From Gloeopeniophorella convolvens (taxonomy: Eukaryota > Basidiomycota > Agaricomycetes > Russulales): DNA of 33,957 nt. Positions 8,136 through 28,807 of this stretch are shown here, in pieces. The notes beneath the pieces were generated by a model that worked only from the letters and a program-made list of their open reading frames with translations, had not been told where the DNA came from and ran no database searches. Where the stretch lies: contig WTXD01000129.1 of the NCBI GenBank assembly GCA_022496205.1, positions 1-33,957 of the forward strand. Reading direction: 5' to 3'. The translations under genes were made by a program, and so were the position numbers. The stretch's first letter is position 1. Every line of letters starts with the position of its first letter.

Positions 8136-9484
8136 GCAGCGCCGGGGTGTGTTATCAGGATCGCTCCAGACCGCATCAGACTTGCTTGCTTGTTGTAGTA
8201 ACATCATCACTTTACTCTAATTTCGACTTGGATCTTCGGCATCTATGCTTCCTGTGTGCGTGCGCGGCGATTGCGGGAGGGTGCGCGTGTGCGGCGCTCC
8301 GTGGCGCTGCGCAGACGACAGCTTCGATGGAGTCGGCGCTCCGCTTTCGTGGGCTCACATGCTCGAGCCTGATGCGTCGACGCTGCGACGGCCGCGCTCT
8401 ACGAACAGCGATTGTCTGTTGTTTCCGCTGTGGATTATGCAGTAACAGCGCCCGTGTGCGCAGGCGTCTAATACAGTCCGCGTTTTGCCCCGCGCTTTGT
8501 CCGAGAGGGCCACGGCCCACCGCGGTGGTCCGCCTCTCTTGGATGACGCGTCGCCTGACACGCCCGCGTATACATGTGCGTGCACCCTCCAATTGCCTGT
8601 ACCGACCTCCGATAGTACCATGTGCATGTCATAAGCCGCGCTGTACTTCAGCGCTTCAGCGGCAAACCATTGTCTGTGCTTAAAGGCTCGTTTCAAGTGC
8701 ACGCGGTCCCGACGGGCCCTCTGTCAGATGTCCACCCGGGCCCTGTGCCGCCGCGCCAACCGGTTCTCGTATCGACAGGCCCGCGTTTGTGCTTCGAGGA
8801 CACAGGTGGAGATATATGCGAAACCTCCATCCAAGGATGGAAGCTGGAGGGTCCGCATGCAAGCAACTTACTGCGCCCGCTGAATGGACAGGCGCGCGTT
8901 GGCGCGTGATCATTCGCATCAATCAGCGGGAGTACGAAGGGTTTGGTGTAAGTATATGAACGTCGTTCCGAGGAGAAGACGTAGATGAGATGTGTGCAAG
9001 ATAAGGCGAGGCGAGCGAGGCAAAGGTGACTCTACTAACGGCGTGGGAGTCGAATCGCTGAGAACCCGGGACGTGAGACAGACTGGCACGGGTGCGATGC
9101 ATGAGTCTACGGGAACACAGGGGCATGGGAATCGAAGTGGAGATTTCGAGAACTACTCGGGAGGGATGTTACATTGCAGCAGAGAATACAGGAGTTTTTA
9201 TACAAGGCAGACAGGCGGCCCTCATAAGGACCAAGGTATATAGTCGAAAGTACGGTGAACACGAACGAAAGCGGTAGACAACGGGGAGTGCGTATTCTTT
9301 GAAGAAATACGAACGATGGTCGATGGGAATCGTGTATGGATCGGATGCATCGTTCGGAGACGGTTCGGCAGTACAGCGTACGCACCTTACACAATGGTGC
9401 CATCATTCATGCCACATACGTATATATATGGTCAGCTACGACGGTTGTCGATAAGCCAGAGGTACGACCGGCGTTGCCACACAT
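8136..9484. other. Interval between fumarate reductase and DUF6534 copy D
   Basis: Contains the 3' region of the fumarate reductase gene and the 3' region of copy D (convergent genes). No gene was recognised. It holds one block homologous to the sequence upstream of copy D (8524-8728, listed separately) and a short perfect-looking hairpin around 8824-8850 (CCTCCATCC ... GGATGG ... GGAGG). Confidence 0.5.
8524..8728 (-). repeat. Duplicated intergenic block (partner 16151-16340)
   Basis: Shares about four fifths of its bases, with small indels, with 16151-16340, which lies about 0.5-0.7 kb upstream of the start of DUF6534 copy D. Shared landmarks are GATGACGCGTCGC/GGTGACGCGTCGC, GACCTCCGATAGTAC and CAGCGCTTCAGC. 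Here it sits about 0.76 kb downstream of copy D, the place where the upstream region of a next tandem copy would be. I infer a remnant of a lost fifth repeat unit. A dispersed non-coding repeat is the alternative. Confidence 0.6.
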
Positions 9485-10077
9485 TTAGGCTGCCTCGAAT
9501 CGTGTGTCGTCCAAGGTGTCTTCGGTGGCCGAATGCAACTCTGCGCGACCAAACTGACGAGCGAGCCGGAGCTGGTTGAACGAGTGGGCCATTCCGTTAG
9601 GTCCGCGAAGCATTCCTCGCACATGCTTCCTTGAGTTCAAGCTGGCTAAGGTGTCAGGACGCGTGCGCACGAATGACAGTCGAGGGAGCTGCCTACATCG
9701 CCATGAACGAGCAGAAATACAACCTCGTCTGAATGAGAGGAAAAGCCGTCCAAATGAGTGCTCGAGGAAACTTGACAATCTGTTGCGCCAAGAATACAGT
9801 CACTACCGTCGATGGAAAGGTCGGAAGCGATAACTCACGAAGATCATTGCCATGGTAACACAAAATCTACATAGATGTTTAGCTTCAACCGAAACGTGAT
9901 TGAGGGTATGCGTCAAGTACTCACATGCTGATAGCGCCACAATTGAAAGAATCCAATCGGCGTGGCCTATGGGGCGCGCGAGATAGAAGGCGCATGACTT
10001 GTGGATAGCGAGAGCGGCGCCGACCGAGTAAACCCGGCCGACGCCCAATAATATTGCGCCGCGGGAACCGCACCTAG

Positions 10078-11139
10078 TCAATGGCGTAACAATGGGTGGT
10101 GGAGTGGAGGCTGGTGGTGTGAAGAGTTGAAAGGTTCCGCGGCGGGGGGGACGATGAGCATCGCGAGAAGGGCAGGGTTCTTGCGAATATAAGATAAGAA
10201 GGCCTGCGAAGACCACCTCCCGAGAGTGCGAATGCGTTCATCGGACCACCCGAGCATAGCGAAGTAGGTGGCACCTCCCGAGCGCAACGAGTGGCCGGAT
10301 ACATTGGCTGGGTGTCCGGCAGAAGTCGGTGAGAGCATGTCGCTTAACCGTGCGAGGAACCATGCGCGAGTAGGAACGGACAGGTCACGCCGCAGCCAAA
10401 GTGCGGGATGGATTGGCGCAAGTCGGTCGCGCGAACGCAAGTAGGTGCGGAAGGTGTCGATGACATCAAAAGGTGTTTGCTGCGTCGTGATAACAACACG
10501 GTTCCCCTCGTAGAACCGGTCAGCCTTGTGGGTCGGCAGTTCATACGAGAAGAAGCCTTCCCCAAAGGTGACCGATAGCCGTGGGATGACTTTCCGCCAC
10601 TCACGGTGGCGCGGATTGTCAGGGAAAGTGAGTTCGCCAAGTCGGTGGAGGCCGAAAAAGCCACAAACGAGCAATGCCAGAAAAAGCAAGTCGTCATGCG
10701 TGGGTCGAGGGTATCGGCGAAACGCTAACAGGATGTCATTGACGTAGAGGGGGTCTTTACGATTGGGAGGCCGCTGGAACAGCTTATGACACCCTGCGAG
10801 GGTGCGCTTGACGAGAGGGCGAGCGCGCTCCTCGCGAACAGTGGGATAGTAAGGCTCAAGCGAGTTGCAGATACCCGAGAGGTAAGTGGTAACGGATGAC
10901 GGCTTGATGTAGTGTGCCATGTAGGTGACATACAATGAAAGCGTGTCGGCTGTGGGCGCGATGGGGATAGACTGTTGTTTGCAAAAAGTGAGGTAGGATT
11001 GGAGGTGCGAGTTGTATGATGATGCAGTAGTGGACTCGATCGCTGCCCCCAGCGCAAGCGCACGAGCATGCAAGAGCCGTTCTCGCGACCAGACAGGACG
11101 GGGTCTCTGTCGAGAGGTCGCGGAAATCGAAAGGCTCAT
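10078..11139 (-). CDS. Tyrosine recombinase (integrase) of the Ngaro-like element
   Basis: A 353-aa tyrosine recombinase, presumed to integrate the circular cDNA of the element. The N-terminal SAM-like core-binding region (about 30-125) is followed by the catalytic domain with the expected residues: R166 in FFGLHRLGEL, H283 and R286 in SGHSLRSGGAT, W309 in LGRWSS (the H/W position), and the nucleophile Y317 in AFLSYIRKNP. The start ATG overlaps the stop of the upstream RT frame as ATGA (11139-11136), suggesting termination-reinitiation. The catalytic set is complete, so the protein may be active. Confidence 0.93.
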   Translation of the reverse strand: MSLSISATSRQRPRPVWSRERLLHARALALGAAIESTTASSYNSHLQSYLTFCKQQSIPIAPTADTLSLYVTYMAHYIKPSSVTTYLSGICNSLEPYYPTVREERARPLVKRTLAGCHKLFQRPPNRKDPLYVNDILLAFRRYPRPTHDDLLFLALLVCGFFGLHRLGELTFPDNPRHREWRKVIPRLSVTFGEGFFSYELPTHKADRFYEGNRVVITTQQTPFDVIDTFRTYLRSRDRLAPIHPALWLRRDLSVPTRAWFLARLSDMLSPTSAGHPANVSGHSLRSGGATYFAMLGWSDERIRTLGRWSSQAFLSYIRKNPALLAMLIVPPAAEPFNSSHHQPPLHHPLLRH

Positions 11140-13811
11140 TGCGCGTCGTCCCCCAACGTGCCTCGAGGGGGTATGAATGTGCTAATTCGCAACGATGGAA
11201 CACGCTGCGCGAGGATTTCGGTAAGCCCACGTGAGAGGGCGTCAGCGACAATATTGTCTTCGCCTGGGACATGGAAGACGCGGAGATCCAGACCGCTATG
11301 GATAACAATGCGCGCCGCACGCAAGAGGATGTCGTTGTAAGGCTCCCTTGCCTTAAGGGAGCCAAAGATCTGCACGGTGTCGAGATTGTCCGTGTAGAGA
11401 GCGAGCCGGCGTGGCGGTACGGGTAGGGCAGCGGCCCAGCACAGTGCAGAGAGGACGCACAAGGCCTCGTACCAGAAAATCGTGTCGCCGGACTCCGGTG
11501 GGGATGGAAGTGGAGCTGTGAAACCCACATTGCGGCTTGGGCACCAGTAGCCCAGTCCAACGAGGCTAGCGTCGCAGAAGATGACTAGGTCGGCGTCTTG
11601 GGGCGACCAATTTGAAGCGCGGACCATGTGGACGCCGTGGAAATGCTCGAAAGTGTCGGCAAACCACAGAAGGTCGCGGATGACAGTCTTATTGATATAG
11701 ACTGGCGCGAAACGGACCTTGAGGCCAGCAATCTTCCGGTAGCTAGATGTGAGTGCGGGGCGCAAGTATGGTGCGACGCTAAGGGCCCAATTCATCCACC
11801 CCAATCTCCTCCACCATTCTAAGAGCGGCCGTTTGCGACCCGGCGCATTGAGGACGAAGTCGCGAACCATGGCCACAAGCTTCTCGATACGCGCGCGCTC
11901 AAGCGTGATAGTCATGGTCTCTGTGTCGACCAAGAACCCGGTTATGACCAAAGAATGGCCAAACAGTTGCTTGGGCTTCTCGTGGGGCAAGCCGATGAAG
12001 TCCCAGAGGAGAAGTAGCTTCGCTTGCTTGACAGGAAACCACATGTTGTACGGAGCATAGTACATGAGTGTGGTGGCGGCATCAAATGAGTGAGAGTCGT
12101 CGACGTATGCCAGCAGTGCCTCCAATAAAAGCACGTTGATAGCGATCCAAAGGACCAGGGCCATAAAGGCACAGAAAAGTGTGCCCGATGCGCGGCCACC
12201 AAAGTTGTCGCAACGGTCAACGCGGCGCTGACCATCAACGGTGATGACCTGACGAAGCTGCCATAGGGGGTGCATAGGCAAACGTCGATAGGCCTGCGAT
12301 ACGTCAGACTTGAACACCCATAGGGGTGCGGATGGGCCAAAAACTTCACGCGCGCGAAGGAGGTTGGTACCGAGATGCTGGACAGTGTCAAGTTTGACGT
12401 AGATGCTGTCGCGATCAATGCATGAATTTGGCGAAAACACTCCGGCAGAGTGGTCGACGACGAGTCGCCGTTTGTTGGTTTCAGGTTTTGGAACGGTGTG
12501 AACAGGGACGCTGCACATCCCGGGCCAAAGCGGGTCACTGGCGTCCGCAAATGGCTCAGAAAAGCGGCCTAGCCGCTCCTCTTCTGCAACTTGTCTACGC
12601 ACAAAATCGAGCGCGTCGGGAGATAAGGGGCGTTCAGGGTAGTCGCGTGGTTCAGGATGCTCGACGGGATCCCAATCTGCGTACGGCCAAAACCCTTCAC
12701 GAAAACCTTTGATAACAGAATGCACAAAGGGCTGATTAGGGTGGTCTGCCAGCAAAGACTCGAAACGCGTGACGTTGATTGGCGTGACGATGGGGAAAAG
12801 ATCCGGGTGCGCTCGAATAGTGGATTGAGCAACTGGATCATTGACAATGTGGGATGGTGGACTAGGAAGCGGGTCACACGTCTCGGTGAATGAAGCTGAT
12901 GGAGTAATGAAGTCATGCGTGGCAGCATCCCACAAGAACCCGCGGAACAATCGCGGGGCTTTAGGAGCGGTTGACCGGGGGGCGTTTGTCTCGCCCTTCG
13001 GATTGCTTCGGCGCTGCGGGTGATTGTAACCGGGAGCTGTCACAGGCGAAGGCTGCGTGGCTGCTAGAGAAGCAGGTTGAACAGATGTGTTTGAACCGGC
13101 ACTCCTTTCCCGCGCAGCGTCCGACATTGAAGTTCCGGCAGATTTCGTTGGTGCGCCGTTTAGGACGCGCCGCTCCAGGAGCAAGCGACGGAGCTCCTGT
13201 TGACGCTGCATTGACGAAGTACAGGTCGTGGAGGTCGGCGAATGCACCGTAGTCTGATAAGAGGAGTCGATTAAGTCGGGCAACTCTTGTATGGACTGCG
13301 CGGTCAAAAGCGATGACACGTTCGGGGGCGTTCCTCCAAACGGTGAAGTGGGAATCGATGCGCTCGTGGTAGGCCTGCAGTTCTCCAGATCGATGGGGGA
13401 AGAGGAATGCCACGGCGGCTGAGTACTTTCCCCAAGCAACGATCCATTCACCATGAGTTCGCAGTTGCCCGGACCCTGCCCGAAGTTGTCTAGGTCCTCC
13501 AACTCGATCTCCAGAAACGTCGGCATCGAGTCCGAGGTCTCCGTCGAGAGCGTTGACTCCGGCAAGGATGCGCTCGAGGTCGATATACGAGTTAGCAATG
13601 ATGGAGGGCCAGATAGTTGATGGGAGCTCGGGGCAGTCGGTTCTGGTAAGCATGAGTCTGCGGACGTGCACTGGGTCCCGCAAGTAGTTCTCCTTAAGTT
13701 GGAGAGTTCGCCGGACGTCGGGATGGACATCAGGCTCGGGTCGCCGCAGGAAGGGGACGAGTCCTTCATCAACCCGCCGTCTGACCGTGTCGGCATCTCC
13801 ATCCTGGTCAT
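11136..13811 (-). CDS. Reverse transcriptase-RNase H polyprotein of the Ngaro-like element
   Basis: Open frame of 891 codons. The recognisable domains lie in the C-terminal two thirds. The RT has VDHSAGVFSPNSCIDR, VFKSDVSQAYRRLPMHP, FGGRASGT and the catalytic YVDD (Y569, bases 12107-12096). The RNase H has FCDASLVGLGYW, FWYEALCVLSALCWA, LYTDNLDTVQ and NIVADALSRG, supplying the acidic D-E-D-D set. The first 280 codons overlap the Gag frame in another register and are Ser/Thr/Pro-rich without motifs, so translation of the RT probably begins near the Gag stop by frameshift (+1 relative to Gag) or by a downstream start. It ends in ATGA shared with the recombinase start. No methyltransferase-like domain is visible between RNase H and the stop. 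Confidence 0.9.
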   Translation of the reverse strand: MTRMEMPTRSDGGLMKDSSPSCGDPSLMSIPTSGELSNLRRTTCGTQCTSADSCLPEPTAPSSHQLSGPPSLLTRISTSSASLPESTLSTETSDSMPTFLEIELEDLDNFGQGPGNCELMVNGSLLGESTQPPWHSSSPIDLENCRPTTSASIPTSPFGGTPPNVSSLLTAQSIQELPDLIDSSYQTTVHSPTSTTCTSSMQRQQELRRLLLERRVLNGAPTKSAGTSMSDAARERSAGSNTSVQPASLAATQPSPVTAPGYNHPQRRSNPKGETNAPRSTAPKAPRLFRGFLWDAATHDFITPSASFTETCDPLPSPPSHIVNDPVAQSTIRAHPDLFPIVTPINVTRFESLLADHPNQPFVHSVIKGFREGFWPYADWDPVEHPEPRDYPERPLSPDALDFVRRQVAEEERLGRFSEPFADASDPLWPGMCSVPVHTVPKPETNKRRLVVDHSAGVFSPNSCIDRDSIYVKLDTVQHLGTNLLRAREVFGPSAPLWVFKSDVSQAYRRLPMHPLWQLRQVITVDGQRRVDRCDNFGGRASGTLFCAFMALVLWIAINVLLLEALLAYVDDSHSFDAATTLMYYAPYNMWFPVKQAKLLLLWDFIGLPHEKPKQLFGHSLVITGFLVDTETMTITLERARIEKLVAMVRDFVLNAPGRKRPLLEWWRRLGWMNWALSVAPYLRPALTSSYRKIAGLKVRFAPVYINKTVIRDLLWFADTFEHFHGVHMVRASNWSPQDADLVIFCDASLVGLGYWCPSRNVGFTAPLPSPPESGDTIFWYEALCVLSALCWAAALPVPPRRLALYTDNLDTVQIFGSLKAREPYNDILLRAARIVIHSGLDLRVFHVPGEDNIVADALSRGLTEILAQRVPSLRISTFIPPRGTLGDDAQ

Positions 13812-13860
13812 TAGCGATGCGGGGACGTTTGAACGGGATGACCTGAGATTGGCCCTCCAC
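12961..13860 (-). CDS. Gag-like protein with CCCH zinc finger (Ngaro-like element)
   Basis: Open frame of 299 codons. The helical middle part is followed by a basic linker and a CCCH finger at residues 241-258 (C-x7-C-x4-C-x3-H, in CRNFNVGRC...CRFKH) with further Cys residues after it, as in nucleic-acid-binding Gag proteins of fungal YR retroelements. The conserved-looking start is GTG (13860-13858), not ATG. The first in-frame ATG encodes residue 70, and a stop lies in frame shortly upstream. Either the start codon has mutated, a spliced leader supplies it, or a non-ATG start is used. The last 850 nt overlap the RT frame. Confident as Gag, less so about the start. Confidence 0.75.
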   Translation of the reverse strand: MEGQSQVIPFKRPRIANDQDGDADTVRRRVDEGLVPFLRRPEPDVHPDVRRTLQLKENYLRDPVHVRRLMLTRTDCPELPSTIWPSIIANSYIDLERILAGVNALDGDLGLDADVSGDRVGGPRQLRAGSGQLRTHGEWIVAWGKYSAAVAFLFPHRSGELQAYHERIDSHFTVWRNAPERVIAFDRAVHTRVARLNRLLLSDYGAFADLHDLYFVNAASTGAPSLAPGAARPKRRTNEICRNFNVGRCAGKECRFKHICSTCFSSSHAAFACDSSRLQSPAAPKQSEGRDKRPPVNRS

Positions 13861-13867
13861 GTGACGC

Positions 13868-13952
13868 CCTGGCAGGGAGAGAGAAAAGCTTAGAAGTGAG
13901 AAACGAGGCGGCGACGATTCAGAAACCTACCTGGCAGGGAGAGAGAAAAGCT
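13868..13952 (-). repeat. Two 23-bp direct repeats that look like splice acceptors (leader of the YR element)
   Basis: The same 23 bases occur at 13868-13890 and 13930-13952, 62 bp apart, just before the Gag frame. On the sense strand each reads as a pyrimidine tract ending in CCTGCCAGG. After the upstream copy comes GTAGGT, and before the downstream copy CTTCTAAG, so the 62 bp between them has a donor, a branch-like site and an acceptor. It may be a leader intron created by a short tandem duplication. Confidence 0.6.
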
Positions 13953-15668
13953 AGGGGCTCAGGATGCCCGCAGCTCGCTCGATAACCCGCCCTGCCAGGG
14001 GACACGGGGGCTCCACACGGATCCGCCCATCCGCAACCAGAACAGCCGCAGGCGGTCGCGACCCGTGCCCAAGGTTCCTATCGTGAATTTGGTCAGCTGA
14101 CCGATCCCATAGTGGGCGTACTGCTCGTATACTGACGAGACTTGAGGCTTGCGGGCGCTGCCCGACGCCTGTGCGTGCGGCAAGGCCGCGGCGCTGGAAT
14201 TGACCCGCCGATTGGACTTCTGTAAACAAGCATGTTTAAAATCGAAAAATATCAGCGTGTTCAGGGCGGAGTTTGTCCTGAGCACACCCAGAGGTCAGGG
14301 GGTTTACGAGGTGGCGGAAGCAAACGTGGTGCCGTACCTTCTGAAATTCCCGCGACGCTTTGAAAGGTAGAAGACCATACCAAATGTTATTGACATGTCG
14401 CAAAGGAGTTGGAAAGAGAAGGAGGTGATCATGTAGCGCTGCAGACGGTGTTAAGTAGAGTTAGCTATTCGCATACTCTCTGAAACAATTATCGCGTATG
14501 GTGAGTTGTCACTGACACCTTGATGGATAGTATCATCCACGAAGTGGCGCGGTAGCATCCTGCATGGTTCCAGTGAACAGGGGCAATCACATAGATCGAA
14601 AATATACATACCGTGGTATACTGTATCCTGAAGGATATATTGCGTGAATGAGATGAGCATATCCTTGTGCGCAACTGAGCCGGTTCGCACCGATTGCAAA
14701 AGCTGGTACTATTAATTAACAGCCACTAGCTGCCGACTCTGATGACACACATACCAGAAGAAGTGGTTGAACATATGGCCTGTGCGATGATCCCATGTGG
14801 GCGATGATTAACTTCGAGAGATGATCAGATGACATACTATTACGATGGGTATACGTATAGCCTCCTGGCTGACTGCAGCGGGATCGGATCAGCTAGCCCA
14901 GGGGTCGGGTGACGACAGACCGGTATAGATGCGATGGGCAAAAAAACTGTCGACAACGGCGGTTAAGCTGGAATCGCCACCGCCACGCGTGCTTACTTTC
15001 GTACGGATAGGTTGATGAGAGCTACCAGGATACAACCAATCTTGAGACGAATTAGGCCACGTACGCAGTGGAAACGGCTCACCAGAAAGAATCACTGTCG
15101 CCTTCAAATTGTGGATGAGTGTAGCTCATCCAGACAATCATGATCACCTGGGCCACGCACCCCATAGCTCCTGTTCCAGAGTATCAGACAATGCTCAAGG
15201 CGAACTTGTCATTTACACGGTAACGCACCAAGGATAATATAGATCGGCGGCGATATTTCTGAAATGGGTGACGGATAATGTATAGGTCACATGCGAGCTC
15301 ATGGCTAAAGTCGATGTGTCGGCTGCCCTGGGGTCATCATCAGTGTTGACTAGCTGTCCATGGCATCGTCTGGGACTGTGACTCACAAGAGCAATGCCAC
15401 CTGTGACGACGGGTTGCATCATTAGGGACACCTCGCAGGCGATAGTGAATGAAAGGACCAACAAATGACTTCAACACCAGCCCATCGTGGAGAGAGTACT
15501 TTGTATAATAGGAGAAGGCCTGCCACAAATTCGCGCCGTACACCCTATCGCTGAAATTAATCGACGGCGCAGACTAAGGCAAAGCAATTGTTCTTACATT
15601 GCTGAGATAACAACTGCAAGGAAGACGGCACCAGTGGTGTCGTCAAACCGGATGCCAGATGCTGCCAT

Positions 15669-16857
15669 GATGGAGAGGGTGGGGGAGGTGACTTGAGAAG
15701 GAAGAGTAGCTTACAGCACCTTATGTGACACGAGCATAGAAATCCGTGAAGAACGCCACCGGTATCGTGGTGGACTTAAGCAGCTTCCTAGCATCCATCA
15801 GCAGCGATCTGCAATGCCGGCCGTTGCCGTGCTTAGTATAGTACTACTGTATGTCTGAGCACCCTATATTGGGGCAGAAGTAGCCACATAGGTGAAAAGA
15901 CGGATGTACCATCACTTGCGGGAGTACGGTGGGTCTGAAGTTGGAGCGAGCGGCTGATCAGCAGGGCGTGCATTGATTGAAATCTGCCCAGTGTCCGAGG
16001 AGCGTGTGTCCACTCATTACTCTGTATCGCAATGGGCAACTCGATTGGAAGCTGGACGCCCCATGCAGTGCGAATCTGGAAGTCGCTCTTCGTTATAGTG
16101 CACCCAGGAAGAAAGTTTGATGTACTCGGGCGTCTAACTCGGGGAGGCCAGTGGTCTGCCTCTGTCGGGTGACGCGTCGCCCACGCCCGCATACATGTGC
16201 GCGCTCCCTGTGCACCGACCTCCGATAGTACTGTGTGTATGTCATGAGCCGCGCTGTACATCAGCGCTTCAGCAACAAACCACTGCCTATGCTTACAGGT
16301 TCGTTTTAGTGCATGCGGTCCCGATGGGCGCTTTGCAGCCCGTTCAGGGTCTTAGTGCGACGGGCGAGGGACGAGCACACACAGGAAATCACAAACAAGG
16401 GCCCAACTCACTCACGAGCGCTGACTCCACGAAGATACAAATTTGGACCCTCGGTCGCAGGAGATATAAAGAAACAACAGGCATAGAGATAGGGTCGTGA
16501 AGAGGCGTCAGGATGAAGGTTCAGGATACAAAGCGGAAGCAAAGTGCATCACGAACGCGGAAGCAAAGTCACATCACGAACGCGAAACTAGTATTAGAGG
16601 GAGGCCATCGCGAACCCGAACAGTCACCGTCACTGTCACCGTCACACTTACTGAACGGAGTTAAGCCCGACAAGTTGAAAATAGCATGATCGTGTTGTTG
16701 GGTAGTAAAAGAATGGAACGCGCGTGTGTTTGTCCATACAAACGTGCTGATCAAATGGAAACGAATGTGTACAGTAAAGAACGTAGGGAGATAGCTGTCC
16801 AATCTTCCGACCAGTCTGCACCCGACCAGGGGCCCTCTGCAGTACTAGCACTCATGC
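15669..16857. other. Intergenic interval between DUF6534 copies C and D, with a duplicated block at 16151-16340
   Basis: Upstream region of copy D and 3' region of copy C. 16151-16340 is the partner of the block at 8524-8728. 16690-16857 is homologous to 19790-19963 downstream of copy B, with a strongly conserved AGTAAAGAACGTAGGGAG core in both. No independent gene was recognised. Confidence 0.6.
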
Positions 16858-18648
16858 CTAGACATGTGCCACGCCTGGTAGCACGAGCGTCATGTCACTC
16901 GGCGTCTCGAGGATCGCGCGGATGCGCTGCCGGGAGTTCAGGCTGCAGCGACGGCGCGTCAGCGGGGATGTCAGTATAGGAGAGGGCATGAGGACACACA
17001 GCGCCATGAACGCGCAGACGCCGAGCTTGGTCTGCAGCGCGACGAACACGGCCCAGGTGAGCGCAATCGGGCGTGCAATGTACTGATGGTGCTGTAAGCG
17101 CCAGAAATGGGGGATGGGGCGGGCGTACAGAGATCAGGCAGCCTAAGGTGCACATACTGTAGGCGTATTCGGGTCAGAGAAGCACAGGGCGAAGCATTTG
17201 GAAGCGCACATGTTGAGGACACCGCAATTGAAGCTGTAGAACGCCAGTACGTTGAGGGCTGCATTCGTCCTTGGTTACCTGCTGTAAGGTGCTCCGGGAT
17301 ATAAGGATGCCAGGGCCACGCACTGCTTGATCGGCCCGCGATGAGAGAGGATGTAGAATACCATTCCTGCAGTGATGAGTACGTCGCACAGGGCCTGCAA
17401 TCCGAGACTGCCTATTAGGAAATGCTGCGGATGCCGGTCTCAGCGATGATCGGATTGGTGGGCGAAGGCCTAGGAGGCCGATGGCTCACCCCTTGGAAGA
17501 CACTTCCATCTATTTCTGTGTGGTTTTTGAGCCTATGCAACCCAGTAAGCGCCCGAGAGGGAGACGTTATGCATTACATAGAAGTAGGGCTGACCAATAC
17601 TCGCATGGTCCTGCCCACGGTGCCATCAGATCGATTATACACGAGTTGGGCAACGGGAGGTGGCATACGGATGCAGAGTGCTGAGTGAAGGGTCGCGAGG
17701 TCAGTCCATGTGCTCCCAATCCCAGACGAATGCAAAGCTCACCAAGATATATCAATGAGGTTACGACCTTGGGGTTGACCACAACGTCAGCGTTAGCCGT
17801 TGGGTGTTGAGAGAGACGAGCACACGTACAATACACATTGGCAAGTACGGCGCTTTTCCTCCCACTGCTCATGATTGACATGAAAGAGCGACAGAGTGAT
17901 GATGCAGAGGGTACTGACGATGATATAACCTGTGTGCAAAGAAGCTAGAAAGCCGGGCGGTGTTCTCAGTGGCTGTTTTGTTCCTGGATCTATGAGCTTA
18001 CATCTGGATGGATGTATTGAGGGCGCCTGCCATTGACGTGTAATGTACTTCATGATCTCCCGAGAAGCGGGCACCGCTTACCGTAAATGATTCCAAGCGA
18101 CTTCGTGCAGGTTTAGCCTCGAACCTCTTCAAATTGATAGCTTACTGCAAAGGTCCTGTGTCGAGCGTCTGATCTAAGCTATACATCGTGGATGCTGCCA
18201 AACGCACCAGGGAGGATGTAACAACGATGAAAGATCGCCGAAGTTCGTCACACAAACTACATATTCGACATGCGAGGTAAACGCCACACTGATTGTGTCG
18301 ATGACCCTGCGGTGTTTACGTGAGTGTAGTATCAACTGCCTAGGATGAAGGGGAGACATACAAGAGCACGGCGACCTTCGCCACAGTCGACTTTGGTCAG
18401 CTCCCACTTCCGATGAATGGGCAAGACTCTCAAATAGCTCACGAAAAGTTTCAGCGCCGGGCCATCGTTCGACGCGTACTCCGAATAGTAGGTGGTCATC
18501 TGTCGCAGATTCGCTCCGTATATCCTATCGGGGAAGAGATCAGGAATCAGCGGATCCTTGTAAAGGTGCACTGAACTGACATAGCTGAGAACACCGCGGT
18601 GAAGAGGCCAGCTCCGAGGGTATCGCCTAAAGTAACAAGGACAGCCAT
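16858..18648 (-). CDS. DUF6534-like seven-helix membrane protein, copy C
   Basis: Eighteen exons on the minus strand: 18648-18581, 18524-18443, 18375-18362, 18306-18208, 18155-18146, 18100-18082, 18026-18002, 17944-17919, 17864-17830, 17767-17743, 17680-17669, 17610-17595, 17532-17490, 17424-17324, 17269-17210, 17156-17129, 17082-17000, 16942-16858. They total 831 nt (276 aa), with phase kept at every junction. Family motifs are IYGANLRQMTTYYSEY in helix 1 and its loop, VIDTISVAFTSHVEYVVCVT (helix 2), FFAHRLYHL (helix 3 end), LQALCDVLITAGMVFYIL (helix 5), TNAALNVLAFYSFNCGVLN (helix 6) and LNSRQRIRAI (cytosolic tail). The family is common in Agaricomycetes and has no assigned function. The tail after LNSR is short (28 codons). 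The reference copy for the exon model, closest to B. Confidence 0.85.
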
Positions 18649-19963
18649 AGAGTGTCGGGGTCCGGGAAAGAGATATGTTTCCATTCCTTGCCCGAACAGC
18701 TATATACACTTCTCGAGGCGAATAGCGTTCCAGGTGGGCATATCTGATATCACGTAGCGGTGGGAGACATTCACTGGTTGTCATCAGATGATCTGATGTT
18801 AGGGTACAGTGTTCCAGTCAGAAAATCGGTGTTGAGATAATGCACGCACTGTTAGTACCGCGCTTGGCGACGGATGCATGGAAATGTAGTAAGATCGTCG
18901 TGTTACGTGGGGTTCTGTGCACTGAGGCGCACGTTAATGGATTGGAAAAAGTGATTAGCAGGGCATAAATTCAAGACCCGTGGGATTGGAGTTGGTAATA
19001 GACTGCCGGCGGCCGTGGGTTTCAACGGATTGTCATAAACCAACTTTACGAGAAGGTGTAGATCAGAGGTACGGGCTTATCACGATCGGGTTCTGCGATG
19101 CTGACTGAGAGTTGGAAAGCGTCGCGTCGTGTTTGACGTGGATCAGAGTACGTGTCGTCACATGCAGACCGCAACGACTCTGGATCGATGATCGGAGTGG
19201 TTAGCATGGGTACGGCAGCTCTATAAAAAGACTGACAGTAAGAACAAAGGCCATTGTACGTGTCGAGCGTTCGCTTTCGTGGTTCAGCGCGTGAGGTCGC
19301 GACCAGGAGATACAGACCAAACATCGTCGGGATAATGCAGATTCGGTGTAGGAACGCTACGACATTAGCCCGATGCCTATTAAAGATTCGGAAGTCGAAG
19401 GAAGAGAACGTGATCGTTCGAAACTCGGGATGCGAACTCAACGACAGCGTTGCGTGGGAGGCGGCTAAGTTGGTAGTCTAGAAATTGGATGATGATTGTC
19501 GCGAACTCCAATTGAAGGCGCTTGGCAAAACGCTTGACATGGAATGCGTGCTCGGCCCGTCCCGCGTCCCGCCACACGGCCCGCTGGCACCCAGCCAGCA
19601 GTCAGTGCGCCGGGTTGCGCCCTGCCGTCATCCGCGTCGCTGATATCGACTCCAGTCTCCTCGTCACTACGATTGGCCCAGGAAAAGCCGAGCGCTGTCT
19701 ATACCTATAGATTTATTTCAGTGCACGCTATCTGGATGGGCGCTTTTCAGCCTGCTCAGAACCTCAGATTGACTGTGCGGCCCGACAAGAGAATGGTATC
19801 GTGTTACATATTGGGTAAAAGAACGGAACGCGCGGGTATTTATTCGTACACAGGAGCTGGCAGAATGGAAACGGGCGTGTAGAGTAAAGAACGTAGGGAG
19901 GTAGCTGTCCGGTCCTCCGGTTGGTCGGTGCGTTGCTGGTGAAACCTTCTGCAGTACTCGCGC
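18649..19963. other. Upstream region of copy C, duplicated upstream of copy B
   Basis: 18800-19530 is homologous with indels to 24100-24850 upstream of copy B, and 19545-19780 to 24880-25030. A 24-bp stretch is identical between 19624-19647 and 24941-24964. Open frames here (for example 19046-19441 minus) have partly similar counterparts in the other copy, but indels break the frame. I read this as shared promoter/intergenic sequence, not a gene. Confidence 0.6.
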
Positions 19964-22900
19964 CTAGACATTTGCCACGTCTGGCATCACGAGCGTCGCG
20001 TCACTCGGGACCTCGAACATCGCGCGAATGTGTCGCCGGGAGTTCAGGCTGCGGCGACGGCGCGTTAGCAGAGATTTCAGCAAAGGAGAGGGCACAGGCA
20101 CACAGAGCCATGAACGCGCAGACGCTGAGTTTAGTCTGCAGAGCTATGAACGTGGTCCAGATGAGCGTATTCGGGCGCACGAAATGCTGCGTAACTTTAT
20201 GAACTCCGGAAATGGGCGATGGATAGGGGAGCACACCGAGATCCGGCCGCCCATGGCACACCCTCTGTATGTACGCATAGGTGAGAGGAGCATGGGGAGG
20301 AGATTGGAGGCGCACATGTTGAGGACACCGCAGTTGAAGCTGTAGAATGCGAGTGCATTGAGCGCTGTGTTCGTCCTGCCAGTTTGCGCGATCGTCATCT
20401 AAAGTAAGGATGAGCTCAGTGGCGGCCAGGGTGCCAGAGACACGCACCGCTCGATCGGGCCACGATTTGAAAGGGTGTAGGAGACCATCCCTGCCGTGAT
20501 GAGGGCGTCGCATAGAGCCTGCAAGCCGAAACTACTGATCAGGAAACGCTGGAGATGACAGTGAGCCGTCAGATTGTTGGGCGGGTCCCGGGATGCCAGG
20601 ATCTCACGTCTTGGAAGACAGATCCGTCTATGGCTGTGCGGTCTTTCAACCTGTACGGGTGTGGACATCTGAGGACTGGTTGATGCGCTGCTTTGCATTG
20701 AGACTAACCAATACTCGCTGGGTCCTGTGCTTCTTGTCAGATTGGGGCTGTATAGATAATTCATAGGGAGGCGACAGACGGATACAGAGGCCTTTGTGAG
20801 TAGAGTCAGCAAGTTCCCGTGCGCCTAGAAGGATTATGAGATCACCAAGATATATCAAGGAGGTTGTGACCTGGAGGTTCATCATGATGTCGGACGTCGA
20901 AAGTTAAATGTTGAATCCCAATAAAGACGCCGAGCTGACGCACAATGCTCATTGGCAAACACAGAGCCCTCTTGCTCACTACTCGGGGTTATCAATGTAA
21001 AGACAGAACAGTGGAGCAGAGTATACAGACAATAGTATATTCTGTGCGCGAAGAAGCTAAATGGGTCATAAAACCAGGTGAGCGGGAGTTGTGATGCTGA
21101 GGAGGCAATCTCACATCTGTATAGATGTATTCAGGGCACCTGAGGACAATAAGCTGTACCGCTTGCACTCTCGAGAATTGATCACCACGTACCAGAGATG
21201 ATTCCGATCGACTCGGTGTGCGTCAGTATCATGGCTTCGAATTCGTGCAGACAGTATGTCAACTTACTGCGAAAGTCCTATATCGGACATGATCAGCTGG
21301 GTTGGGCGGCATCAGCAAAACCGGCAAAACCTTGCGGCCACTTGTGGGTCTGGCCGGAACCGCAAGATCTGATATACCCTTATCCGGGATTCTGTAGATT
21401 AGATTCCCGGATAATGTACCTAACGGGTCAGCTCCGAAATTATAAGATGCCGGTCCGATTGCGGAGGGAGATCTCACGCTGTGCACGCATTGGCAATCTA
21501 CATGGAGCATGCTGCAACCTTTGCAAGGGCCTATCAGAGGCCATGATTATCCCTTGCTTCTTGCAAGGGGAGTGTATTTCTTTTGCCCCCTTTGCAATTG
21601 AGTCAGTGGTACAATAAGTTCCAATGAGACTGTACAATAATTATGGGATTAGCAAGACCTCAAGATTGCAGTATTAGTTGCTAGCAACGATAGTAAAAAT
21701 TTGCAAAAGACAGAAGTCGAACGCGAGCTCTCAACGCGAGGATGACTAACGTCACTATTACCAGTACACCACAAAGAACTCGAAACAGGAAGGCACTCTC
21801 TGCAATATAACCCGCACATCGACGCCGTGGAAGTCGGACTCGAAAAATTTGCACAAGTCGTCGTTCACGTCGCTATCTTCTCACCCCCATGTTCGACATC
21901 ATGTATCACGCGTCACGGCGCTCGATGTCGCCCTCCTCCGCCGCAGAGACGGCTCCTATTGTCAAATCCAAGGCCCCACTCCGCACGTAGGCCCAAACAA
22001 TGGAACGGCAGCATGATGATTCGCGGTGCGCGATTCCGCTGCCACCAATATCGTTGCCGGTCCGACCGCTCTCATGCGAGAACCTCGCAGGACGACGTGC
22101 GCACGCATCTCGGGCTGCACCACCCCGTGTTGCACCACGATAACGCCATTGCGCCGGCGCATCAGGTCCTGCTGCATAGCGCGGCTGCGATGTGGCGCAG
22201 TAACATGCATCCTGCAAGGCCTTCGCTGCCGCCGCTTTCGCCGCACGGTTCCGCCGACAGAAATGGCGACCGCACACCCGCCAGCATGCCCGCGCCCGGA
22301 CTCATCACGACGCCGATGCTGCGAACCCCCCTCTCGCAGCCCCGTGCCGAAGCAAGGCGACCCGACCGCGCCCCCGCCACGAGCTTCTTCACGCAGCGAC
22401 ATGGCCGCGACGTGGCATGCTGACGTGCGCCTCCTTACTTCCCCACCGCGCTCTGATGAGCACGGCTCCATCTTCCCAGACAAGGACAGTCGTACCGTCC
22501 TCGTGTTCGACTCGCCACCCCTGCTGCTACGCCATCACGCGGGCGCGGCCCACCCCGATACCCCGCACACCGCCGCACGCTGCGCCAAACCACCACCACG
22601 CTCCAACAAGCGCCGCCCCACTCTCCTAACCGAGGACGCCACCTCCAGTCCCGCATCTGCCTCGCCGCCCCCGCCACTCCGCGACCGTGCACACACGTGC
22701 ATATCACCAGGCGGCCAACCTCGACTAGCATAGACCCTGCCTTGCTTGGCACCAGACCGCCCATGGTGCCGCCATCGAGCCCATGTCTGCGAGGGGACCA
22801 CGACCACCGCGCCTGCATGCCTTGTGGTGAGCTTCGCGCTCAATTGCACTGCTGCTGCCACTGCCTGTGTCGCCACCGACCGGCTATACGAGCCGTTCGG

Positions 22901-24077
22901 CATCGTCGTGCACATTGACAGGTGCAGGTGCGTGCGTGTGCGCGTGCCCATGCGCACCCCTCCCGCACAACCCCTAGCTGACTTGTGCCCCCCCCCCCCC
23001 AGTGTCCAGCGACCCGCACCACGGGCACCCGCGTCCGCAACCACGATCGTCGTATCCGCGAGCCCCGTGGTGAGCCCCGCGCGCAACGCGCTGCCGCCGC
23101 CACCGCTGCCCACGCACCTACTATCACCCAATCCCGCGAATGATCCCGCGCTGCCGTAGCCCCATCACCGCCCCTCCTGCTCCCCTGCCCGCCCTCTCCC
23201 TCTACCGCACCTGCGTTCCCCACCGCTGGGCCCACACAAACAGTATATATGCTGCATGCCCGGCCACATGCGCGTGGCACCATTGTAGCACATGGGTGAA
23301 GCCTGTTACGATGGAGCTGCCCGTAGTTACCAGTGGCATGTAGAGCCTTTTGTAGTGTCTGAAACTGGCAAGGGAATACATGAGCATATGAACACTTTAC
23401 AATACTTCTGCGAGCCTGACAATGTCAGGCCATATTGGCAAGGGACATCTTGATTCGTGTGGCCCACAAGAGTTATGTCAAAATATATGGGATTTTAAAA
23501 AGTAGTAAACTCATATCAACGCTTGTAGACCGACCGACTCCTCGCAGCCCTTTTGGTCCTTTTGACCCTTATAGGGACTCAAAAGTACAGATAAGGTTTT
23601 GCGGGTTTTCGTGATGCCCTGTCCAAGGTATATCCTGTCGGAACGCACCAAGGAGAGTGTGACAAAGACGATACGTCACCGAAATTCGTCACACAAACTA
23701 CGTATTCGACGTGCGAGGTGAACGCCAGGCTAATCGTGTCGACCGCCCTGTCACGGTGGCGTGAGCACGGCGCTTGCGAACTACGACTCAGGGAATGCAC
23801 ACAGGAGCACGGCGACCTTCGCAGCGGGGTTCGGTCAGATTCCGCTGGGGAGGAATGGGTGCAGATTTAGGCTCACAAAAAGCTTTAGCGCCGCACCATC
23901 GTTTGACGAGTACTTCGTATAGTAGGTGGTCGTTTGCCGCAGGTTCACTCCGTACACCCTAGTGTAGGGATGAGATCAGCGAGTCCCTGGAAAGGTGCCC
24001 TGAGCTGACATTGCTGAGAGAACCGCGGCCAACAGGCCAGCTCCAAGGGTATCCCCTAGGGTAACAGGTTCAGCCAT
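19964..24077 (-). CDS. DUF6534-like seven-helix membrane protein, copy B (large insertion in intron 4)
   Basis: Eighteen exons: 24077-24010, 23958-23877, 23816-23803, 23747-23649, 21277-21268, 21211-21193, 21139-21115, 21056-21031, 20978-20944, 20870-20846, 20791-20780, 20724-20709, 20650-20608, 20548-20448, 20375-20316, 20264-20237, 20186-20104, 20048-19964. They total 831 nt (276 aa), every exon the same length as in copy C. Motifs include VYGVNLRQTTTYYTKY, VDTISLAFTSHVEYVVCVTN, FFAHRIYYL, LQALCDALITAGMVSYTL, RTNTALNALAFYSFNCGVLN and LNSRRHIRAM. Intron 4 (23648-21278) is 2371 bp because of an inserted element. Without it the intron would be about 60 bp. The coding frame is intact; whether the intron still splices is unknown. 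Confidence 0.8.
21308..23618. mobile_element. TIR-bearing insertion (DNA-transposon-like, no transposase seen) in intron 4 of copy B
   Basis: 26-bp terminal inverted repeats at 21308-21333 and 23593-23618 match at 23 of 26 positions (GGCATCA...AAAACC.GCAAAACCTT), bounding 2311 bp. The right end read outward gives CAGGGCATCA, reminiscent of hAT ends, but no convincing target duplication was found. Subterminal hairpins occur at 21380-21414 (10-bp perfect arms) and 23414-23430. The interior (about 21890-23230) is strongly C-rich on the plus strand with proline-rich or glycine-rich frames and a diverged internal duplication, but no transposase motif. It is probably non-autonomous, possibly carrying a captured fragment. 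Confidence 0.7.
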
Positions 24078-25119
24078 TGGATTGAGTCCGGGGAAGATCT
24101 TCATCCGACTCGAGTTTATATGGACTCAGAGGCGTTGGAAAATGCTGATCATGGTTGAATGTGGCTGATACGGGGACACTCACTTATCGTCCTTGGAAGG
24201 TCTGATGTTAGGGTGTAGTTGTTCTTTCCCGATTGATGTTCAAGTAACGAATCCTGAAAACTGTTGCCTCGGCCTCACATGGCGACGGAGGCAAACCGGG
24301 TACACAGCCTCACTCATGCACCATAGACGTAGAATTTGTGATAGAATGCTGCGGGTCTCAACGGGTCCGAAAGCCAACTTCGCGAGAAGATATCGACCAT
24401 AAAGTACGTTTTCACTATTATGATTCGGATCTGGCTTGCGTTGCGTTTGGTGTAAGGTACGTGTCGTCACACGCAGGCCGCCGTAACGGGTCTGAATCGA
24501 TGACCACAATGGTTAGCATGGGTACGGCAGCGCTATGGGAAGACTGATCAAGAACAAAAGCCGTTGTACGTATCATGCGTCCGCTTTCGTGTTCCAGCGC
24601 GTGAGGTCGCAACCAGGAGGTACATACCAGACATCGTTGCGATCGTTCACGTTCAGATCCGACGTAGGAACGCCGCAGGTCATTAACCCGACTGGCATCA
24701 AACTTTGGGGGAAGAGGAAATGTAGTCGTTCGAGACTCGGGTTGCAAATTCAATGATACTGTTACACGGGACTCGATAGGCTGGGTTGGTAGTCTGCGGG
24801 GGAACTGGTGATGATTGTCGTGGTCGTGAAGCCACCTACGCGTGGGGGCCGCACAGGGCCGACGCGCGCTCGGCCCGTCTCACCACTGCTCACGTGGCCC
24901 TGGGCCGCTGGCACGGTCCCGCCACTGGCGGTTGCGCCCAGCCGTCATCCGCGTCGCTGATATCAACCCCCACCATCACCAAGAATGCTCAGGAAAAGCC
25001 AAGCGAGGTCCTGCCTTGCCCATTTATCTATTCAGTCTGCTAAGAACGCTCTAAGTACGTACGCAATCCACTAGCAGTGTTCGTAGTATGATCCCAAAGC
25101 GGCTGATGCTAGGTCGCAG
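24078..25119. other. Interval between copies A and B
   Basis: Upstream region of copy B, homologous to the region upstream of copy C (see 18649-19963), plus the 3' region of copy A. No gene was recognised. The open frame 24418-24753 (minus) shares a short segment (ACDDTY and flanks) with 19046-19441 but lacks frame conservation. Confidence 0.55.
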
Positions 25120-27071
25120 TCACAGTCCAATGCTACCTTCCTCTTGCTTCGCTCGTGATACATACTCAGGGCCGTCTGTCTCTGCAGAATGCCGGACACT
25201 GTCTTGGTCATCGGTATATGTGTCGGTGTCGACGCAAACTACGGGTGCTGGCACCTGAGCAACTCCACCCGCTAGCCACCCTGTGCCCGGCGTGGCAGCT
25301 GATCCCGAGAGTATTATGCAGTCGGAACCGAGGAGCATTTCTCGGATGTGGTCCCTAGAGTTCAATCTATGCAAGCTCAGAACTTTGGCCCGGTCAGTGC
25401 CTAGAGAGCACGTACATGGACATGAAAGAGCAAAAGTAGAGCGCAGTTTGGCAGTTGAAGAATATGACCCATATCAGCGTCTGTGGAAGGATGGCGATCT
25501 ACGACAGAGCGAGCAGTGAGAAATACTCATGTGGAGGGTCATCTAGAAGAGCAACAAACAAATGCGGTGGTGATAGCGATGCAGACGCTATGGTGTAGTG
25601 TGAGCGAGATTCGAACCCAACAGTGGGATGTTTCATACATGCTGAGGATGCCACAGTTGATCGAGTAGAATGCGAGCAGTTTGAGAGCTGAGTTTGTCCT
25701 AACAGTCGCTTCAGCTCCCTCAGGCAACTCACAGTTTCTGAGATCAGACCAGGATGGAAACGGACCGTTGGACGTCGCCGCGGCTCCTGAGGAGGTAATG
25801 CACCATGCCAATTGTGATGAGCCCATCGCTGATGGCTTCCGTTACAAACCCGCTAATCGCAAATCTCTGCAACCAGATTAAGCGATTCTGATGACGTTTT
25901 GAGGGAAGTTTGGTTTGGGGTGGCTGACTCACATATTGGAATATCGTCTGATCGAGGGAATCTGATTGCATCCTGTAGACTAGAGTATCAGGAGAGGATT
26001 ATGTCCGGGATCACGATAAATAGGGACCCTTTGATAGCACTTGCTGGCAATACGGAAACAGTGTCAAGGTAGGCGGTGTTTCTCATGATGCTGTCCTTTT
26101 GCTCACCAAGCCCAAGAGCTACGAAAATATATCTCGGCTTCCTGGGGATGTTGAAACGGGATAGGCTCACCAGTTGATACAGCGGAGGTCAGAGACTAAT
26201 CGACAGGGAATGTAGAACTGATCAGAGTAAAGGAAAGAGACGAGTATGGGTACGCACGATTGCGGCTGTCAAGGGTACCAGACCTCCGCTCACTGTGTTC
26301 GAATGATCAGCACGAATAGGAGCTGCGCTGGTGTGACTGACAGCGGTAAAGTCTTAGCGATAAGAAGCTGAGAGAAGAACAGTAAATCGAGCTGAAATAG
26401 GCATTGTTCATCACCGCACTGGCCTCTGGATGAAAAGACTGAGGACAACTAGTAGTCGAGGGGGTTACGAATTGCAGTATTCCAGTTGAAAGCACACGGT
26501 GCCAACTTACTCTTAGGGAAACCGCTCAGCTGCACATGGCGAAAATAAGGTGCATAGCGCTGAAGTCCGAACTTTGGGTACTTACCCAAAACGTCCTGTG
26601 CGCAGTTAGAAAAGTTCGGAATCTGCAGTGGTGAGCTTGCCTAGGGACGCGCGACTCATCGATGAGGTCATTCAGATCCGGCACGAAGGCGAGGTATCCA
26701 GAAGTTGCAGTGAGAACTAAGTGGGCCGTGTCGAGGAAGCTGACATGCATCTGGGTATATTGGTCGGACAGATAATTTGGCAAAATCAACCTACAGAAGC
26801 ACAGCGACCTCAAAAATGGCAGGATAAGCGGGTGCCCCTTCACTGCGACACAGCACTCACAAAAGATCTCAAGAACCTCCCATCGCGACCGGAATATCTT
26901 GTATAATAGGAGGTTGTCTGCCACACATTAACACCATACAGTCTGCAGGTGGTGAGAGTGCTGTCAATTGATCCTGAGAAAAAGATTATAAGGGAGTACT
27001 TACGCTGCCGCTATTATGATAGAAGAGTAGCCAGCTCCGAGAGTAGCCCATACCGGGGCGTCGGGACCCAT
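25120..27071 (-). CDS. DUF6534-like seven-helix membrane protein, copy A
   Basis: Eighteen exons: 27071-27004, 26942-26861, 26808-26795, 26739-26641, 26595-26586, 26529-26511, 26448-26424, 26367-26342, 26292-26258, 26195-26171, 26118-26107, 26043-26028, 25972-25933, 25866-25766, 25698-25639, 25587-25560, 25498-25416, 25366-25120. They total 990 nt (329 aa) with no internal stop. Motifs are LYGVNVWQTTSYYTRY, FLDTAHLVLTATSGY, LSLRLYRLSGG, VTEAISDGLITIGMVHYLL, RTNSALKLLAFYSINCGILS and LNSRDHIREM. The tail after LNSR is the longest of the four (81 residues, acidic end). The most diverged copy, yet with the same exon lengths. Introns 4 and 7 need GC donors (AG|GCAAGC and AG|GCCAGT). Product probably in a membrane, with unknown function. 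Confidence 0.85.
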
Positions 27072-27123
27072 GACTTGTTAAAGCAGTTTGAAATAGCGGG
27101 GGACCTGTGCGTGATCGAGTGTG

Positions 27124-27131
27124 TTTATATA
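27124..27131 (-). promoter_or_regulatory. Candidate TATA box of copy A
   Basis: TATATAAA on the minus strand about 53 bp before the ATG at 27071, in a C-rich context. Assigned by motif and spacing. Confidence 0.55.
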
Positions 27132-28113
27132 GTCGACAGACTGGAGCTGGTGGAGGCGAGTCGTCTACCCGCGCCGCTCTAAATGGAGAGCGGTGAGTTC
27201 GAGCTGATCTAGCGCAGATCCTTGCGATGAGCCACGAAGACGCCGCACTCTAGTAGGCTGCCGACATTGGACGTGCTATGATCTCCTCTTCGGGGAGTTA
27301 GCCCGCCGAGGAAGATCGTTTTGTCGCTTCCATAGTACCAGCGACGTATGGATAACGTGGGGAGCACTGGATCGCCATGTGGTTCGCGAGAATGGAAGAA
27401 GACATGCGATAGCCCACGAACGCGGGATGCGATTGGGGATTGGAGGGTAGAGCTGTAGCAGCACAGCCTGCGCGTCGCACTCGTTGGATACATCAGGCTC
27501 GACCGTGAGTGCCTCGGGGCCCAAGCGCTCGCTAATGAAATCCGGAGATCATCAATTAACCCCTGCCTATGCCACGACGATGGTTGTCGGGCTGAAAGCC
27601 CTAAGAATGCAAGGAACTGGACAAGCATACGGCAGGAAAAGGCTGGTGAGACTTGGGTGTCTAGTAAGAACTTGAAATGTTAGTGAGATCTTGAGGGGTG
27701 GTGCGGTGATGCGAGGCTGACTGAGAGGTTCCAAATGTAGCCGCCCAACAGCGGATCATGTCGGCTGCCAGCGGAGACTGTCACGGAAAAGCCCGAGGTC
27801 CAACGCTGCCGGCTCGTAGACTGGTGACCGAGTCTCTTCACTCCGCTGATGATGACAAGCATGTACTTACCTCCGTTAGAGACTGGGAGAATTCGGGATG
27901 GCGTGACTACGCCGGATCAGGAAGTGGACAGGACCAGGAAGTGAACATTTTGGAAAGATCGACTCCGCACGCAGCAATGGCTGCATAGAATTCGTTTATA
28001 TTTTTATACAATGAATAAATAGATCCATTCCACATGCTTGCGAAGTTTGAAGCCGATTGAGCTGCCGGATGATGCTAGAGAAATCGGTACTTCTGGGACA
28101 CTGATGTGGACAG
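27132..28113. other. Interval between copy A and the LTR element; no gene recognised
   Basis: Open frames exist at 27209-27628 and 27276-27524 (minus) and 27484-27675 (plus), up to 139 codons, but none shows a motif I recognise and they overlap in conflicting frames. It ends at the 5' end of an LTR, whose 5-bp flank is GACAG. Confidence 0.45.
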
Positions 28114-28766: not shown

Positions 28767-28807
28767 TTTGGACAGTCTCTTACACCCTCTGATCAGCTGC
28801 GATCCTA

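Follow-up and report, generated by a model that had tools for sequence, protein, structure and literature searches.

Schistosome micro-exon genes are built of chains of very short exons, which are symmetric and are used for variation. Here, four tandem genes (A to D) sharing one series of 18 exons are analysed in a 33,957 nucleotide (nt) stretch of the basidiomycete Gloeopeniophorella convolvens (assembly GCA_022496205.1, contig WTXD01000129.1, positions 1-33,957), hereafter called the window. At least B, C and D belong to the DUF6534 family. Tandem P450 clusters of Phanerochaete chrysosporium frequently contain small introns of 45-55 bp and exons down to 6 bp (PMC1184071). Like the present genes, they are Agaricomycete tandem families which keep their intron positions within small clusters. 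However, their micro-exons are scattered over families and the larger clusters diverge (PMC1184071), whereas the present chain of eight successive exons, each 10-35 nt long, is retained by about 20 genes from 8 contigs. The one-nucleotide exon of Fusarium CYP621A (PMC12940212) also has its length fixed by a conserved protein stretch, but it is a single exon of an ascomycete P450 gene confirmed by archive reads, while the chain described here is sequence-based.

DUF6534 proteins of Agaricomycotina were proposed as a new class of G-protein-coupled receptors (GPCRs), with coupling to G proteins given by machine predictions (PMC12842992). The present genes share with that proposal the family membership of B, C and D and seven predicted helices in their paralogues. 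A word search did not find 'intron' or 'exon' in the main text of that paper, and the conserved 18-exon chain is an addition to the picture it gives of DUF6534. The Phanerochaete P450 genes already provide cases of micro-exons, densely set small introns and tandem families sharing introns (PMC1184071). A literature search with DUF6534 and micro-exon terms combined with fungal groups, outside which most subscription papers lay, found no description of micro-exons in DUF6534 genes and no chain of eight micro-exons kept across a receptor-like family.

The 18-exon series in the window and across the family

An earlier note on this DNA, read by eye, had assigned the same 18 exons to all four copies. 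A chain search with the exon lengths of that note fixed, introns running from GT or GC to AG and a stop-free reading recovered the whole series for D and B, as well as for C if intron 4 spans 2371 nt and for A if a stretch of 4.3 kb is passed over. Exons 2-12 measure 82, 14, 99, 10, 19, 25, 26, 35, 25, 12 and 16 nt and exons 14, 16 and 17 measure 101, 28 and 83 nt in all four copies, exactly as claimed. Exon 15 has 60 nt in B, C and D and is split by the insert into 32 + 28 nt in A. The genes lie head to tail on the minus strand in an assembly of 36.7 Mb and 404 contigs, with start codons at 27071 (D), 24077 (C), 18648 (B) and 15668 (A). B and C encode 276 amino acids (aa) each and D 329 aa; identity to B is 75% for C, 37% for D and 40% for A's part. 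With introns of 38-95 nt, a complete chain opened from 3 of the 1044 ATGs in the window (526 + 518, both strands), namely that of D and two of B, which are in frame with each other. The chains of A and C appear only when the large insert is permitted as an intron. Profile alignment gave all 17 intron positions and phases in B and D and 14 of 14 in A before the insert, and conservation of phase across the copies, also claimed, was confirmed; the 17 positions in C come from the fixed-length chain only. The intron size of 45-80 bp given in the earlier note holds apart from intron 4 of C, and A, taken there as one gene, retains the series but contains a foreign element at 9953-14245.

The fixed-length chain was also complete in 7 further DUF6534 genes, three on contig C386, two on C257 and one each on C377 and C26; among the 5717 ATGs of loci L029-L050 (L048 left out) it opened from 9, all belonging to these 7 genes. 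A splice-aware profile alignment, which knows residues and splice signals and no intron positions, was run with splice matrices trained on 153 introns from nine chain models. It called 322 introns on 19 loci, 311 of them at the same 17 places, compared with 9 of 347 on the antisense strands. Of the 11 introns called elsewhere, four lie at the extreme end and are spurious, and the others are shifted by 3-20 nt, in some cases through the placement of gaps. In four spliced complementary DNA controls the coding chain stayed free of introns, and one control had a single spurious call at its extreme end. Antisense and shuffled controls scored -43 to 76 against 497-999 for the real loci. Counting C from the chain search, 20 genes on 8 contigs were modelled. 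With a profile built from nine proteins foreign to this genome, six of them with species names, the series came out the same except in D, where exon 4 was called 87 instead of 99 nt, and in A, where exon 14 was called 113 nt.

The tally of exon lengths covers the 16 of 20 genes for which the call gave 18 exons exactly. Exons 2, 3, 5, 6, 7, 8, 10 and 11 are constant in all 16, and exons 9 and 12 in 15. The genes left out are A (cut), C26-1 (without intron 5), C26-5 (without intron 4) and C26-4, which has one spurious end call and an exon 9 of 38 nt. The absences of intron 5 and intron 4 are plain losses which fuse two exons and keep their summed length. Other deviations are multiples of 3, except in a distant gene on C371 with the intron 16 call shifted by 20 nt, and variation lies mainly in exons 1, 13 and 18 (the ends and a loop). 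The series predates the window cluster, and its introns are best explained as standing at ancestral positions common to a large subfamily of this fungus. Indirect evidence points to the same intron positions in other Russulales.

Seven intron-poor DUF6534 loci of this genome (L041-L047, one gene each) aligned more weakly, with scores of 266-387 against 497-999 for the other loci under a different profile. Introns stand exactly on series positions in the more distant genes L045 (14), L042 (12) and L044 (10), together with others elsewhere. Of the remaining loci, L046 has one series intron and L041, L043 and L047 have none. A second gene on C1 matches L045 for its first eight exons. In L042 and L045 (on C375 and C1) exons 6 and 7 measure 18 and 26 nt, not 19 and 25 nt, with intron 6 shifted by one base and the sum kept, which is either a true slide or an ambiguous junction.

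Two deposited proteins of this species, P0001 and P0019, are identical to the 18-exon models, and therefore an annotation pipeline can get such genes right. A protein spliced by model from contig C257 is identical to BC834DRAFT_390210 of this species. Among other deposited paralogues, P0003 diverges after exon 17 and P0022 is without its first 68 residues. The expectation that the chain would be hard for gene finders therefore holds for P0003, P0022 and the flawed proteins of other species, but not for P0001 and P0019. Five external proteins of 279-345 aa (P0004, P0005, P0020, P0023 and P0024) belong to clusters tagged lgn or jgi, the former presumably meaning Logan. Their longest contigs have 1478, 2343, 1138, 1323 and 1162 nt, respectively, and because four of the five are too small for the intron-bearing form, at least four of these proteins are probably transcript-derived. 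All five hold every residue of exons 4-12 and 14-17; exon 13 falls 0-2 residues short, and P0023 and P0024 begin late.

In deposited proteins of Lactarius, Multifurca and Mycena, 7 of 8 insertions lie no more than 1 aa from one of the series borders, against a background of 17% (P about 3e-5), where the limits of the count, at least 15 aa and positions 20-250, were set after the list had been seen. An insertion of 23 aa in Mycena is 6 aa off. Among the four shorter insertions at these positions, three likewise come within 1 aa of a border, the fourth being 5 aa away. Deletions vary, some stopping at a border and others not, and in P0012 the stretch preceding the border is unrelated and may represent a different type of error. 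Many of the border insertions look like retained introns. From the insertions at borders, the exon structure probably predates the split of Lactarius, Multifurca and Mycena.

Family membership and predicted product

The spliced proteins were searched with the DUF6534 profile (PF20152, 80 positions, Pfam curated cut-off 28.2 bits). B, C and D scored 46.6, 47.0 and 58.2 bits over positions 2-80, and the family assignment of the earlier note is upheld for these copies. The 5' part of A alone reached 17.1 bits over positions 2-30, below the cut-off because the insert cuts away most of the domain. In a tree whose root is not fixed, the window copies were placed beside genes on C386, C368 and C111 and apart from proteins of other species. 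Seven helices are predicted for the paralogues, arranged as in a GPCR/rhodopsin-type seven-helix bundle, and exons 5-12 encode predicted helices 3 and 4. The product is probably a seven-helix membrane protein, a GPCR-like receptor, according to these models.

The predicted fold is closest to yeast Ste2 (class D GPCR, PDB 7ad3), with 10-11% identity. Kinship to Ste2 by sequence was also considered and rejected, as Pfam scans give DUF6534 and not STE2. A PDB sequence search with the DUF6534 profile returned no match at E up to 1, and the STE2 profile (PF02116) gave two weak matches in this genome (E 0.004 and 0.005, on C361 and C351), none over the cut-off. Separately, a cluster of strong STE3 (PF02076) matches was observed on contig C350 at 615-756 kb, which is likely the mating-receptor locus of this genome.

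Splicing of the micro-exon chain

Among 336 introns, one of them spurious, 331 start with GT and 5 with GC. Intron 4 of C apart, they are 40-78 nt long with a median of 56 nt, and the longest in the earlier chain models has 86 nt. Skipping a single micro-exon would demand an intron of 107-160 nt (159 cases), beyond the observed range. Only one of the ten micro-exons (up to 35 nt) and 3 of 16 internal exons are multiples of 3. With this count a gene of the schistosome type, which we take to be marked by symmetric exons with lengths divisible by 3, was rejected. Donors at micro-exons average 6.70 bits compared with 7.28 elsewhere (P 0.003) and acceptors are equal. Intron definition has been inferred for fungi at large, basidiomycetes included (PMC2397502), and the intron lengths and the donor and acceptor pattern found here are what recognition across the intron predicts. 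Each intron, as a unit of about 56 nt, would be recognised across itself and spliced out constitutively, and since the introns would be the recognised units, an exon of 10 or 12 nt would require no recognition of its own. Exon lengths are constant because the introns keep their positions and the intervening transmembrane-coding stretches accept almost no insertions or deletions. The locus is accordingly best read, with good confidence, as a local DUF6534 cluster with ancestral short introns, constitutive intron-definition splicing and seven-helix receptor-like products.

Some points weigh against this reading. The slightly weaker donors of micro-exons could permit regulated skipping, and donor quality is partly built in because the best chains were chosen by splice signals and the matrices were trained on those chains. 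Expression of A-D is presumptive and their splicing is predicted from the DNA, the transcript status of the external proteins is deduced from the size of their source contigs, and receptor function is suggested by resemblance of fold. Profile kinship with Ste2 was not found when two DUF6534 alignments were compared with 23 Ste2 proteins by hhalign (probability 3.8% and 1.0%, out of register).

The earlier note had offered isoform switching or splicing-dependent control as possible roles of the chain. In such a reading, in-phase sets of micro-exons would be skipped to switch receptor isoforms, comparable to animal microexons and Trichoderma Xlr2. In-phase pairs do exist as arithmetic (25+26 and 35+25), the weaker donors fit such a role, microexon splicing switches a fungal regulator (PMC11121469) and alternative splicing was suggested for the micro-exon-rich Phanerochaete P450 genes (PMC1184071). 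Yet multiples of 3 are not enriched, skipping would disrupt predicted helix 3 or 4, exons 4-12 are all present in the five external proteins, and cassette exons are rare in fungi and protists, with a mean cassette fraction of 3% (PMC2397502). The proposed role found no support in these data, and regulated skipping is unlikely. That all four copies are pseudogenes, with the series merely an inherited residue, fits the cut in A and its dN/dS (ratio of non-synonymous to synonymous rates) of 0.53, the donor base missing from a second copy of D on contig C382 and the 2371 nt intron of C. It is nevertheless unlikely, given the open frame and 17 GT-AG introns of B, a B-C dN/dS of 0.18 at a dS of 0.78 with introns 61% alike, and paralogues which suggest that the series works elsewhere. 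Exons so short constrain little singly, and the variable exons allow many alternative chains (1029 for B), so that matching lengths might be threaded through any DNA by over-fitting. Such chance threading was refuted by the ATG counts, in which only B and D open a chain, by the antisense and shuffled scores and by the identical deposited proteins, and its probability is negligible. Beyond constitutive splicing of a local cluster, it is speculative, and rather doubtful, that a receptor family found throughout the mushrooms and folding like the ascomycete pheromone receptor Ste2 had a long constitutive non-symmetric micro-exon chain as its ancestral gene form. On this view the chain, many of whose introns persist in more distant DUF6534 genes on C1 and C375, would have been kept because dense introns serve receptor expression or quality control, while other members lost it.

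State of the copies, other features and implications

Copies B, C and D are laid out as follows.

16858..18648, minus strand: copy B, 18 exons, 276 aa; the only clean copy
18581-18648, 18443-18524, 18362-18375, 18208-18306, 18146-18155, 18082-18100, minus strand: B exons 1-6
18002-18026, 17919-17944, 17830-17864, 17743-17767, 17669-17680, 17595-17610, minus strand: B exons 7-12
17490-17532, 17324-17424, 17210-17269, 17129-17156, 17000-17082, 16858-16942, minus strand: B exons 13-18
19964..24077, minus strand: copy C, 18 exons, 276 aa, open frame
21278-23648, minus strand: C intron 4, 2371 nt
21268-21277, 21193-21211, 21115-21139, 21031-21056, 20944-20978, 20846-20870, 20780-20791, 20709-20724, minus strand: C micro-exons 5-12
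21308..23618, no strand assigned: insert in C intron 4, about 2.3 kb, inverted ends GGCATCACGAAAACCCGCAAAACCTT / GGCATCAGCAAAACCGGCAAAACCTT
25120..27071, minus strand: copy D, 18 exons, 329 aa
26586-26595, 26511-26529, 26424-26448, 26342-26367, 26258-26292, 26171-26195, 26107-26118, 26028-26043, minus strand: D micro-exons 5-12

B is the likely working copy; within the micro-exons its dN/dS against C is 0.12. The working state of C is doubtful because its intron 4, enlarged by the insert, outgrew the size kept by the other introns. The outer ends of this insert were set at the starts of the inverted repeats, which are 26 nt long and imperfect. The insert is also present in C382, and two of its open reading frames (ORFs) were scanned with no Pfam match over the cut-off. 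The state of D is likewise doubtful because donors are weak or missing. It has GC donors at intron 4 (GCAAGC) and intron 7 (GCCAGT, a poor site), and the intron 2 donor of the C382 copy is one base short, which may reflect allelic variation or a fault in the assembly. The last 10.4 kb of C382 (L029-L030) are 99.2% identical to window positions 21244-31677, C insert included, and this contig is probably the second haplotype.

Copy A is interrupted within exon 15.

14246..15668, minus strand: 5' part of A, exons 1-14 and the first 32 nt of exon 15 (14246-14277)
15598-15668, 15463-15544, 15387-15400, 15229-15327, 15161-15170, 15083-15101, 14997-15021, minus strand: A exons 1-7
14921-14946, 14838-14872, 14755-14779, 14691-14702, 14612-14627, 14517-14559, 14338-14438, minus strand: A exons 8-14
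9953..14245, minus strand: element inside A exon 15, about 4.3 kb, ends good to about 1 base
9485..9952, minus strand: 3' part of A, last 28 nt of exon 15 (9925-9952) and exons 16-18 (9839-9866, 9697-9779, 9485-9641)

A paralogue of A on C386 has an unbroken exon 15 at the insert position, giving a precise empty site, and A is dead by insertion. Against this C386 relative its overall dN/dS of 0.53 rises to 0.93 in the 61 micro-exon codons, a pattern as would be seen for a decaying copy. The element ORF at 11136-13811 has a weak reverse-transcriptase match (RVT_1, E 0.059, below cut-off) and the ORF at 10078-11139 presumably carries a recombinase-like motif, by which the element resembles a DIRS-like retroelement and is putatively so named. 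Neither ORF matches over a Pfam cut-off, and a PDB search with the longer one gave one match (E 0.44), taken as chance.

Other features were also observed in the window. On the plus strand, two adjoining ORFs at 6541-8135 with FAD-binding (E 5e-39) and cytochrome b5 (E 1e-24) domains are what we take to be a fumarate-reductase-like flavoprotein gene. An ORF of 601 aa at 31926-33731 (plus strand) matches retrotransposon capsid/gag domains weakly (E about 0.002) and stays below the cut-offs. A 96 nt repeat, 86% identical, occurs at 8598-8693, just after the flavoprotein-like ORFs, and at 16211-16306, between A and B.

Judging from the border errors in proteins of Lactarius, Multifurca and Mycena, surveys of DUF6534, the GPCR-class proposal included, seem to draw on gene models that are in part wrong, and the exon chain offers a demanding benchmark for programs that find genes or map long reads. 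Copy C, in which a 10 nt exon adjoins an intron of 2.4 kb, provides a ready-made natural experiment. About 20 diverged genes with eight consecutive exons of 10-35 nt represent a natural test of the minimum exon size under intron definition.

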